The notes under the pieces were generated by a model, which was given only the letters and a program-made list of their open reading frames with translations, did not search any database and had not been told where the DNA came from. A stretch of 60,747 bases of DNA, from positions 1-60,747 of the forward strand of contig NZ_JAFBEG010000015.1 of assembly GCF_016908635.1 (NCBI RefSeq). Reading direction: 5' to 3'. Below are positions 12,065 through 41,976 of the stretch, piece by piece (position 1 is the stretch's first letter; each line of letters opens with the position of its first letter). The translations under genes and the position numbers were made by a program. This stretch comes from Sporohalobacter salinus (GTDB lineage Bacteria > Bacillota > Halanaerobiia > Halobacteroidales > Acetohalobiaceae).

Positions 12065-12253
12065 ATGACAAATAAGGAGAAAGATAATCAGGCTGAAATG
12101 AAAAATATTAATAATAATGACAAAAAAGATAATGAAAAAACTAGATTAGAAGAACTGAATAAAGAATTTGATGACAGAAACATGGAATCAATCTCTAAAG
12201 ATGACGAAGATTTAAATGATGAAGAAATTGATAACATTGATCTAGGTGGATAA
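12065..12253 (+). CDS. Small highly charged acidic protein
   Basis: A 62-aa protein with no hydrophobic segment, made almost wholly of Asp, Glu, Lys and Asn. It looks intrinsically disordered, with a coiled-coil-like middle (RLEELNKEFDDR). A strong GGAGGTGATAAG ribosome site precedes the ATG, which argues that it is translated. It is read divergently from the LolA-like gene. No family is recognised; such proteins are common in halophiles and spore formers, but no function can be given. Confidence 0.6.
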   Translation: MTNKEKDNQAEMKNINNNDKKDNEKTRLEELNKEFDDRNMESISKDDEDLNDEEIDNIDLGG

Positions 12254-12424: not shown

Positions 12425-12470
12425 ATTATAACGAAACCATCACCAATATTGGTGATGGTTTCGTTATAAT
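12425..12470. terminator. Perfect 46-bp palindrome, probable bidirectional terminator
   Basis: Twenty-three bases are repeated in inverse order with no spacer, centred between 12447 and 12448 (core ACCAATATTGGT). It touches the stop codon of the DUF2283-like gene on the minus strand, and a TATTTATTTTTT run lies just beyond it on the plus strand. It may end transcription from both sides. Confidence 0.65.
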
Positions 12471-12880
12471 TATTTATTTTTTAACAAAAATGGTTCTATA
12501 ATTTCTAATTTACCAAAGTTATTATCCATAATTAATTCTACTCCAAAAATTCCATCTTCATTAAAGTCAAGATTGGCAGTAACTCCTATTCTGCTGGCAA
12601 TTTCTAATGAAGAATCAAACAAAATAGTAAGCTGGTCTTTATACATTTCAACTTTTTCATTTTTAATATTCTCATACTTACTATTTAATAATGACAACTC
12701 ATTATCCTCTCTTTTCAATTCATCAATATTAAAAATTTCAATCCCCAACCAATTATTATAAGAATCCAATAATAAATCTGATCTTAGGGCTGGAATGGTA
12801 CTAATGTCTTTTCTATCGATATTTCGCAAATAAATATAAATTAAAACCGAATTATTACTTTTCTCATAGGTGATCTTCAT
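12470..12880 (-). CDS. Tandem DUF2283-like protein, partner of the SIR2 gene
   Basis: A 136-aa soluble protein. Residues 1-50 (MKITYEKSNNSVLIYIYL ... LGIEIFN) and residues 80-118 (QLTILFDSSLEI ... DGIFGVELI) each follow the DUF2283 outline of a beta-hairpin ending in a D-x-x-x-x-G-I/V-E-I/L motif. This suggests two diverged copies. Single DUF2283 proteins are often found beside small toxins and are treated as antitoxin-like. It starts 50 bp after the SIR2 gene in the same direction, behind its own AAGGAGG. The family assignment is by eye and moderate. Confidence 0.55.
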   Translation of the reverse strand: MKITYEKSNNSVLIYIYLRNIDRKDISTIPALRSDLLLDSYNNWLGIEIFNIDELKREDNELSLLNSKYENIKNEKVEMYKDQLTILFDSSLEIASRIGVTANLDFNEDGIFGVELIMDNNFGKLEIIEPFLLKNK

Positions 12881-12930
12881 TAAATTCCTCCTTACCTGCT
12901 ACTAATTTGTTTTTATAAAAAGAAGTTTAT

Positions 12931-14037
12931 CTAATCTTTTTGCCTTATTTCTTTTAAAATATCCGGAATTTCATCAAAATCATCTATCCAAATCGTCCTT
13001 ATCTGAAATGATAACGCATCTTTTTCTTCAAAGTTTTCCATTATATTAGCTATATGATTTGTTACCTCTTCTAATTCTAAGTCAGCTTCTTTCTTTTCTC
13101 TTAATAGATCTTTATCCTGTTCTAATATTGATGAAATAGTTCTTTTTATTTTTTCTCTATCATAGTATTTTTTAATGATATAATGATATTTTCCCTTTTT
13201 TCCTTTTTGAATATTAGCAATATCTAATAATCTCCTTAAATTAGGATCAGTAAGTGAAATCCCAATAAATAAACAAGTCTTATCTCTAAACTTATTTATC
13301 TGTGTAATATTATTCCAACTATATATATCAGTGTAGTGTTGATGATATCTACTATCTGTTAAAGTGATCTTGCTTTCTTTATCCTCTTCTACAGGTGACA
13401 ACCCATGCACGTGATATATAGGTAACCCATTGAAATGAGAAGCTTGACCTACGTCATATATAGACTTAAAAGATATATCTACTTGTAAATCAGAAAGATG
13501 TCTTTCTAATATATCATCATAATTATAAGTAATAATCGAATCTAAATTAGAAGACTTTCCTGAAGCTATACATAATTGAGCTATCTGTTTAATAGTTTCA
13601 GTCTCCATATTAGGATTAAAATTTTCATATAAAGCCTTTCTTACAGCTTCTTTAAAATCTATTCCATCTTTGTCATTATAATAATTATCTACATATCTAG
13701 CTGCAATTACCTGACTTAAAGGAAAAGCTTTTGCAAAAATTTTAGCTAAAACTAAAGCCCCTTTCTTAGACTCATCAGTTTCAATTCTAAAAGTTTGTAG
13801 TAAAAGTTTCTGTAATAAAACATCCCAATTTGGTATCCCGTAGTCTTTTGAAACACCAGCTCCTAATACCAAAACAAGATTATCCTTCACATAACTTTCT
13901 ACTAAATTATCGATCTTATTCTTATTGTACACTTCATTACTCTTCAACAAATTTAAATCTCTTTCTATATTAGAATCTAATTCTTCTAATTTATTCCTTA
14001 CTCCCCTTATATTGGTTTTAAAATCAGTGTTTGACAT
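12931..14037 (-). CDS. SIR2-domain protein, probable NADase
   Basis: A 368-aa protein with an N-terminal helical stretch (1-50) and a SIR2-like Rossmann domain. The NAD-binding loop is VLGAGVSKDYGIP (57-69), the catalytic-type asparagine/aspartate motif is TYNYDD (Asn172), and the histidine motif is YHVHG (His211). FIGISLTDPNLRRLL follows, as in SIR2_2 proteins of Thoeris, DSR and pAgo systems. A coiled-coil-rich region (290-345) ends the chain. No zinc-binding cysteines are seen, so a deacetylase role is unlikely and NAD+ cleavage is the expected activity. AAGGGGGG precedes the ATG. The DUF2283-like gene follows 50 bp downstream. Confidence 0.8.
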   Translation of the reverse strand: MSNTDFKTNIRGVRNKLEELDSNIERDLNLLKSNEVYNKNKIDNLVESYVKDNLVLVLGAGVSKDYGIPNWDVLLQKLLLQTFRIETDESKKGALVLAKIFAKAFPLSQVIAARYVDNYYNDKDGIDFKEAVRKALYENFNPNMETETIKQIAQLCIASGKSSNLDSIITYNYDDILERHLSDLQVDISFKSIYDVGQASHFNGLPIYHVHGLSPVEEDKESKITLTDSRYHQHYTDIYSWNNITQINKFRDKTCLFIGISLTDPNLRRLLDIANIQKGKKGKYHYIIKKYYDREKIKRTISSILEQDKDLLREKKEADLELEEVTNHIANIMENFEEKDALSFQIRTIWIDDFDEIPDILKEIRQKD

Positions 14038-14223: not shown

Positions 14224-14245
14224 AACCGCCCCTTCTGGAACGGTT
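14224..14245 (-). terminator. Terminator after the OYE-family reductase gene
   Basis: Minus-strand AACCGTTCC and GGGGCGGTT pair around AGAA and are followed by CTTTTTATTT. Confidence 0.85.
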
Positions 14246-14286: not shown

Positions 14287-16290
14287 TTATATATGTCGTG
14301 CTACTTCATAAGAATTCCAAATAGTAGACATGATATTTCCTGCTTCCAAAGCATCACCAATTAAATGAAGATTAACTATTTCAGTTTCATGTTCTCGATA
14401 AAGCTTTTTATCGGATTCAAGACCACTGGCTAAAATAATATTATTTGCAGTAAGATTTTCTTGATTAAAGGAATCATCTATTAATCCAACTCCTTTATCA
14501 GTTACTTCAAATAAGCTTTTATTAGTAATAATCTCTACTTTGCTATTATTCAATAAATCAAGAAGCATCTCTTTATTAGCATGTGGAATTTTAATTCCCG
14601 ATTGCATTAAATCATCTTGTTGTTCTATAATTGTTACCTCATTCCCTCGATTATTTAAAGCTAATGCAGTTTCACACCCAACTAATCCTCCTCCTATGAT
14701 AACTATTGATTCTTCTAATTCTTTTTCTTTTAATAATGCTTCACTTGCTGTAATTACCTTTTCTTTTTCTATACCACTAATATCTGGTTTAATATAATTA
14801 GATCCAGTAGCTACAATTACCTCATTAACTTCTTCTTTTAAATTATCTTCTAAAGTAACTTCTTTATTTAAATGAATTTCTACATTTAATTTATCTAATT
14901 GAGTTTCATACCAATCTAATAATCGATGTTCAGCTTCTTTAAATTCCATAGCACTAGCTGCTATTACATGACCGCCCAATTGATCATTCTTTTCATAAAG
15001 CATTACCTTATGTCCTTTAAGCGCACAGATACGAGCTGCTTCCATTCCTGCTAATCCTCCACCAACAATAGCTATATCTTTTGTCTCATTTGTTCGCGGA
15101 ATATCATATTCCTTTTCTCGACCGCAGGCAGGATTTACAGCACAAGATAAAGGCTTTCCAGCAAAAATCCTACCCAAACATCCGTCATGACAAGCTATAC
15201 AAGGACGAATATCTTCAACTTGATTAGTTCTTACTTTATTAGGCCATTCTGGATCAGTAAGTAAGCCACGACCAATAGCAACCATATCCACAGCTTCGCC
15301 TTCTTCGATAGCTTCCATGGCTAACTCTGGGTCATCCATTCTTCCAGCAATTATAAGCGGTACATCTACTTTATCTTGAAGCTGTTTAGTTAAATGTAAA
15401 TAACAGCCATAGTCTTGATAAATCGGTGGATGAGCCCAATACCAAGCATCATAGGAACCAGCATCAGCAGTAAAAGCATCATAACCAGCTTGTTCAAGAA
15501 TTCGAGCTGCCCTAAGTCCTTCTTCTACATCACGCCCTTGTTCTTCAAATTCTTCTTCAGGCAAACCACCTTGATTCCAATCCTTTATATAATTTTTGAT
15601 ACTATATCTAAGTTGAACAGGAAAATCATTACCTAAGTTGTCTTTAATATTTTGTACAATTTCCGTAGGGAACCTTAATCTATCCTTTAACTCTCCACCA
15701 TATTTATCTATTCTATTATTAAATAAATCAATTGTAAATTGGTCTAATAAATATCCTTCATGAACAGCATGAATTTCAACTCCATCAAACCCAGCTTCTT
15801 TGGCAGTTTCAGCACCTTGAACTGCTTTTTCAACTAAAGTTTCTGCTTCTTTAGTGGTAAGTGCTCTGCAAGTTACATTAGGTTCCCAATAATTAGGAAG
15901 AGCAGACGGAGCTACGGGTTCTGTTTCTAAAATATGAGGATCAGCAACTCTCCCTAAGCCAAGTGTTAATTGTAAAAATATTTTTGTACCATGAGCATGA
16001 ACTTGTTCATTCATTTCCGAAGCTGTTTTAATAAAACGAGTAGGATTTGCAGAAACAACTGGAAAAATTCCTGGTTTTATTCTTTCAATTTCATTTTCCA
16101 CTTTTGTAACACTAGTGATTATCAAACCGGTTCCACCCTTAGCTCTCTCTATATAATAATCTCGAGCTCGTTTAGTAAAACAACCATCTTGTGTAACTAA
16201 TCCACCTATTCCCATAGGAGCCATAGCTATCCTGTTCTTTATTTCCACTGAATTAATTTCAATAGGTTTAAATAACTTTGAATCATTCAT
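14287..16290 (-). CDS. NADH:flavin oxidoreductase, 2,4-dienoyl-CoA reductase/BaiCD type
   Basis: A 667-aa three-domain flavoenzyme. An FMN-binding TIM barrel of the old yellow enzyme family comes first (MAPMGIGG at 24-31, then HAVHEGYLLDQF and RYGGELKDR-like KYGGELKDRLRF). A [4Fe-4S] motif CIACHDGC...C (Cys364, 367, 371, 383) follows, then FAD and NAD Rossmann domains (IAIVGGGLAGMEAA at 407-420; IVIIGGGLVGCETA at 529-542). Such enzymes reduce enoyl groups of fatty acyl-CoA, bile acids or xenobiotics with NAD(P)H. The substrate cannot be told. It has its own promoter region, which is duplicated at 19.2 kb beside a decayed copy of the gene. Confidence 0.92.
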   Translation of the reverse strand: MNDSKLFKPIEINSVEIKNRIAMAPMGIGGLVTQDGCFTKRARDYYIERAKGGTGLIITSVTKVENEIERIKPGIFPVVSANPTRFIKTASEMNEQVHAHGTKIFLQLTLGLGRVADPHILETEPVAPSALPNYWEPNVTCRALTTKEAETLVEKAVQGAETAKEAGFDGVEIHAVHEGYLLDQFTIDLFNNRIDKYGGELKDRLRFPTEIVQNIKDNLGNDFPVQLRYSIKNYIKDWNQGGLPEEEFEEQGRDVEEGLRAARILEQAGYDAFTADAGSYDAWYWAHPPIYQDYGCYLHLTKQLQDKVDVPLIIAGRMDDPELAMEAIEEGEAVDMVAIGRGLLTDPEWPNKVRTNQVEDIRPCIACHDGCLGRIFAGKPLSCAVNPACGREKEYDIPRTNETKDIAIVGGGLAGMEAARICALKGHKVMLYEKNDQLGGHVIAASAMEFKEAEHRLLDWYETQLDKLNVEIHLNKEVTLEDNLKEEVNEVIVATGSNYIKPDISGIEKEKVITASEALLKEKELEESIVIIGGGLVGCETALALNNRGNEVTIIEQQDDLMQSGIKIPHANKEMLLDLLNNSKVEIITNKSLFEVTDKGVGLIDDSFNQENLTANNIILASGLESDKKLYREHETEIVNLHLIGDALEAGNIMSTIWNSYEVARHI

Positions 16291-41759: not shown

Positions 41760-41774
41760 GAATATCATTAATTT

Positions 41775-41902
41775 CTCTTCTTTCTTCCGGACTCTACCGT
41801 CGGTGCTGAAATTCCATCAGCTCGGCCTCTAGGCTCGTGGACTATAACCACCGGTCTGGAATTAGAGATTTGAATCAAATCTCTTCACCATACCCTGAAG
41901 AG
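41775..41902 (-). ncRNA. FMN riboswitch (RFN element)
   Basis: The minus-strand sequence has the RFN conserved blocks in order: CTTCAGGGTATGGTGAAG, then ACCGGTGGTTATAGTCCACG, a variable arm, then GCTGATGG...ATTTCAGCACCGACGGT and AGAGTCCGG with a final GAAGAAAGAAGAG. The P1 helix is CTCTTC/GAAGAG. It controls the flavin transporter gene by FMN-dependent termination. Confidence 0.95.
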
Positions 41903-41976
41903 TTAAATATTAAATTAAATATCACTGTTAATATTATATAGTAATATCAGAAAAATAACAAGCAAAAAAACATAAC

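Follow-up and report, generated by a model that had tools for sequence, protein, structure and literature searches.

The window analyzed here, a stretch of 60,747 nucleotides from Sporohalobacter salinus (genome G000), carries two neighboring genes on the minus strand. The first (positions 12931 to 14037) encodes a 368-aa protein of the SIR2_2 family and ends in a TAG stop codon; its translation contains the GAGVS, TYNYDD, and HVHG motifs, all three of which had been pointed out in an earlier note on this DNA. The second (12470 to 12880) encodes a 136-aa protein of a rare family and begins 50 bp downstream of the SIR2 gene, just where that note had placed it. Pyrrolysine readthrough of the SIR2 stop codon, which would yield five extra residues before a TAA, was considered and rejected, as G000, unlike the same-genus genome G001, has no PylS above the cut-off. 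The oxidoreductase gene at 14287 to 16290 of the window is uninterrupted, and its ortholog in G001 (L119 and L123), where PylS is present, contains an in-frame TAG.

The gap between the two genes (12881 to 12930, minus strand) holds a strong ribosome-binding site, AGGAGG, ahead of the ATG of the small gene. No terminator-like site was found in this gap, and the two genes are probably co-transcribed here. A terminator-like hairpin with a T-tract lies at 14224 to 14245 on the minus strand, between the upstream FMN-oxidoreductase gene and the SIR2 gene, suggesting that a separate unit probably starts with the SIR2 gene. At the other end, a perfect palindrome of 46 bp (12425 to 12470) overlaps the stop codon of the small gene and folds into a hairpin at -31 kcal/mol (z of about -11 on the plus strand and about -9 on the minus strand). 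This palindrome had been described as closing the unit, but its T-tract, TTATTTATTTTTT, lies on the opposite, plus strand, and ATGGGATTAG, the sequence behind the hairpin on the minus strand, contains no T-run. As an intrinsic terminator it would therefore serve plus-strand transcripts, those of the convergent 62-aa ORF at 12065 to 12253 (plus strand), and on the minus strand it can act only as a hairpin without a T-run. The palindrome region is present as a single copy in the genome, which ruled out a dispersed repeat. A known RNA family was also rejected, the only hit in an Rfam scan of the window being an FMN riboswitch at 41771 to 41906 on the minus strand (90.1 bits). When both flanks were compared, the genes flanking the SIR2 locus were found ~240 kb apart in G001, and a common empty site was absent.

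Sequence and predicted structure of the SIR2 protein

In the Pfam scan, the 368-aa protein matched SIR2_2 with an E value of 3.5e-18 and a score of 66.5 bits against a cut-off of 24.5. Its PADLOC matches, to the ThsA, LmuA, Dsr1, and general SIR2 models, were all partial; ThsA and LmuA scored best, with coverage restricted to the SIR2 part. A Dsr1 hit scored 29.4 bits, where 1400 would be needed for the equivalog level. No equivalog-level model in PADLOC or NCBIfam covered the protein. The translation contains just two cysteines, C156 and C255, which makes the Cys4 zinc module found in deacylating sirtuins impossible and agrees with the earlier description of a SIR2 protein devoid of zinc cysteines.

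An AF2 model built from a 41-row alignment had a pLDDT of 84.6 and a pTM of 0.84 and consisted of an N-terminal helix (residues 6 to 50) and an NADase-type sirtuin domain (about residues 45 to 368). When it was compared with known structures by Foldseek and VIA-align, the top matches were BcThsA (Z of 26.6 over 275 residues), KomC (24.8), and DSR2 (23.9), followed by SPARSA (19.9), FAM118B (19.3), Avs5 (18.4), and SIR2-HerA (16.5), with the canonical Sir2 structure 1m2k ranking lower (13.5). ThsA residues 2 to 280 spanned residues 33 to 368 of the model in the structural alignment. Since the sirtuin domain runs to the last residue, 368, the protein has no SLOG domain. Residues N172 and H211 were invariant across the 41 aligned sequences and aligned with N112 and H152 of ThsA, which we take to be the catalytic residues of that enzyme.

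The small protein and its proposed pairing with SIR2 genes

The small protein had been read as two DUF2283 units. In a profile-profile comparison with DUF2283 (PF10049), its N-terminal half gave a probability of 91%, supporting kinship at the profile level, and its C-terminal half gave 14%, which falls short of significance and leaves kinship of that half suggestive. No Pfam match to DUF2283 was obtained for the protein up to an E value of 1 (the Pfam cut-off is 23 bits), its relative P0002 scored 10.7 bits, under that cut-off, and the genome as a whole had zero DUF2283 matches at an E value of 0.001. The protein thus resembles DUF2283 in its N-terminal half but is longer than the domain and lies under Pfam detection. 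No reliable match was found for it in Pfam, NCBIfam, PADLOC, PHROGs, or the PDB sequences, no relative was found in the viral contigs scanned, and a literature search on DUF2283 found no paper. AF2 on the small protein by itself gave a pLDDT of 36.8, too low for judging a fold or a complex.

Three homologs were found elsewhere: one on an Alkaliphilus plasmid, one on a Paenibacillus plasmid, and one in a further genome of the phylum, where the gene alongside looks by eye like pxpB. The family was present in 2 of 398 genomes of the phylum, the source genome included. None of the three homologs has an adjoining SIR2 gene, and an annotated abortive-infection gene lies ~2 kb from one of the plasmid-borne relatives.

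The earlier note had proposed that the pair may form a toxin-antitoxin or defense module. In such an arrangement, the SIR2 protein would act as toxin, and the DUF2283-like protein would inhibit it or serve as its sensor. In favor of such a module are the shared strand, the 50-bp gap, the good ribosome-binding site, the terminator-like sites on both sides, and the plasmid setting of the small-protein relatives, one with its abortive-infection gene. The search that the note had recommended, for co-occurrence of the two genes, was run. In the 84,980 genomes scanned, 172 SIR2 relatives were detected. Of these, 80 loci were kept, and they together with 16 loci from viral contigs and three from plasmids made up 99 SIR2 loci. 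A small-protein HMM was built from four sequences; it recovered its own members at E values below 1e-50 and detected the known carrier G107. Its best E value in the 99 loci was 1.6, so that the small protein was found in 0/99 of them, and it was likewise absent from all 19 whole genomes holding a SIR2 relative. The co-occurrence across genomes expected of a toxin-antitoxin pair was accordingly not seen in either set, an outcome that the earlier note had itself set against its proposal.

The nearest sisters of the SIR2 protein, from Halanaerobium (60% identity) and Natroniella (47%), had no small protein nearby either. In the tree, the window protein grouped with that of Halanaerobium salsuginis (support 100/98), then with Natroniella (99/88), and then with Bacillus and Fictibacillus (97/89), and as the sister lineages are without the small gene, its association with SIR2 in the source genome is local. 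The 60% identical SIR2 gene of H. salsuginis, the absence of the pair from the other loci, and the three homologs located away from SIR2 all speak against the module, which we therefore consider improbable. The small-protein family is too rare for a test of co-selection. A related reading, in which the Halanaerobiales strain recruited the DUF2283-like protein as a dedicated partner that regulates an otherwise self-sufficient SIR2 NADase or senses for it, making a young two-gene defense module without a counterpart elsewhere, seems to us similarly doubtful. Since the SIR2 relatives are single genes in many bacteria and phages, the small protein is probably a local neighbor, and a false two-gene system can be removed from consideration.

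Distribution, architecture, and neighbors of the SIR2 relatives

The SIR2 relatives were scattered over Bacillota, Bacteroidota, Pseudomonadota, and other groups, and none turned up in G002 and G004, two genomes of the same family. The window protein belongs to a clade of 40 rows with short or middle-length N-terminal parts (support 100/98), and the other relatives fell into a second clade, made up mostly of TIR-SIR2 proteins, and a group in which the N-terminal regions are long; no Pfam match was found in the long N-terminal region of the one group member scanned. These differing N-terminal parts suggest an effector role for the SIR2 core and, for the segment ahead of it, a role in sensing or regulation.

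Several variants were observed along the way. TIR and SIR2 are fused in one chain in L050, L055, L057, L058, and others, mostly within a single clade, and in L050 and L058 both TIR_2 and SIR2_2 exceeded their Pfam cut-offs, giving two NADase-type domains per protein. The N-terminal segments (LNKVLREFNISLDRA..LSSQGYEIEPRPTTKIS) of L038:776-2044, L041:7740-9029, and L042:1074-2375 recall the IF-2 N-terminal domain, a resemblance that is unproven and that has no Pfam match in L041. In proteins of ~500 aa such as L010:5491-7005, L059, L061, and L074, the N-terminal region is long and resembles a nuclease by eye (YSFETFV...LIEIK), with no Pfam match in L059. A relative on a Lysinibacillus plasmid (L009:5998-7017) has frame breaks in the deposited record, due to sequencing error or to decay of the gene.

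The neighbors within 4 kb of 96 SIR2 relatives were compared all-against-all, and families occurring in three or more loci were listed. These were mainly structural genes of P2-like prophages, and outside such prophages no neighbor family recurred next to the SIR2 gene; the remaining shared neighbors look by eye like general families at varied positions (sensor kinases, aspartokinase-like proteins, and resolvases). Within the P2-like prophages, the SIR2 gene is found between the tail-completion gene (phrog_26) and the baseplate-assembly gene (phrog_6142), a position suggesting that it is added cargo. This site differs from the gpA-gpQ hotspot of P2-like prophages described by Rousset et al. 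(PMC9122126). Among 5,426 E. coli genomes, four carry a prophage copy of at least 99% identity, and in three the copy is full length.

A search for nearby defense genes, also recommended in the earlier note, gave such genes beside some of the relatives, and there was no convincing PADLOC match in the ten window genes within ~10 kb. The neighbors in question, KAP NTPase, HsdS, HsdM with WYL, GmrSD, DUF4365, and DUF4062, were sampled by eye and picked for their defense-like look, so that they indicate that the setting exists but not how frequent it is. DUF4062 proteins were presented in 2026 as a TIR-like family of antiphage NADases (PMC13174449). On one viral contig (L093:7767-10499), a SIR2 gene of the window protein's family was observed near a DUF4062 gene.

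The reading of the window protein as a defense-type SIR2 NADase, already made in the earlier note, is well supported by its fold, its catalytic residues, the prophage carriage, and the neighborhoods of its relatives. Some relatives do lie among metabolic genes, as would be expected of a housekeeping sirtuin or another NAD-processing enzyme without a role in defense. The patchy distribution, the carriage on prophages and plasmids, the missing zinc cysteines, and a fold closest to antiphage NADases argue against this function, which we regard as unlikely.

Proposed mechanism and comparison with known systems

We infer that the SIR2 protein belongs with the bacterial SIR2-type enzymes that destroy NAD+ as an antiphage response. 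Its gene is probably a free-standing antiphage NADase effector, to which the downstream DUF2283-like gene would be a strain-level addition that is not required. According to the mechanism that we propose by analogy with its close fold relatives, the SIR2_2 NADase would be kept inactive in normal growth and be triggered by phage infection, whereupon it would hydrolyze and deplete NAD+, and the infected cell would halt or die ahead of phage release. The SIR2 protein would most likely do the sensing on its own, with its N-terminal segment, which varies between lineages, or by a self-assembly step like that of ThsA, KomC, Avs5, and FAM118B. The DUF2283-like gene, probably on the SIR2 transcript, could be carried along as a passenger or act as a local modifier. 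The wider group to which the SIR2 gene belongs is little described and comprises single-gene SIR2 proteins from many phyla, some in P2-like prophages, whose N-terminal segments range from short helices to TIR domains and long unassigned regions. Because near-identical prophage copies exist in E. coli, the group is directly testable there.

The known systems with SIR2 effectors resemble the window protein to differing degrees. ThsA of Thoeris, a SIR2-SLOG NADase, has the same sirtuin fold and the same catalytic Asn and His and likewise lacks a zinc module, but the window protein is without its C-terminal SLOG signal receptor. KomC of the Kongming system, a SIR2 NADase of 264 aa, works with its partner KomB on a nucleotide signal. 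It is sirtuin-only like the window protein and similar in fold, whereas the window protein has an extra N-terminal helix and a helical insert, and a KomB-like partner is not conserved. With ThsA and LmuA best in PADLOC and ThsA and KomC best in fold, the window protein might serve one of the known multi-gene systems (Thoeris, SIR2-HerA, short pAgo, Lamassu, or KomBC) as its effector, the partners being located elsewhere or lost. ThsA senses its signal through a SLOG domain, which the window protein lacks, the ThsA and LmuA model matches are confined to the SIR2 part, and no partner family recurs beside the 96 relatives; in particular, neither thsB (TIR) nor a partner gene of SIR2-HerA, SPARSA, KomBC, or Lamassu was found among the scanned window genes or recurring beside the relatives. 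We therefore give this explanation little weight.

DSR1 and DSR2 act as single genes, as the free-standing effector that we favor would, and their N-terminal SIR2 domain has the fold of the window protein. The DSR proteins exceed 900 aa and have a large C-terminal sensor region, which the window protein, at 368 aa, does not have. A published account treats SIR2_2 proteins, also called SIRims, as a class of sirtuins without zinc, the antiphage sirtuins among them (PMC12700824). This class includes human FAM118B, with which the window protein has in common a SIR2_2 domain without a zinc module, although the two are distant in sequence and the vertebrate proteins form their own clade. With a SIR2_2 score above the cut-off, the catalytic Asn and His, and no Cys4 module, the window protein has three features of the SIR2_2/SIRim class.
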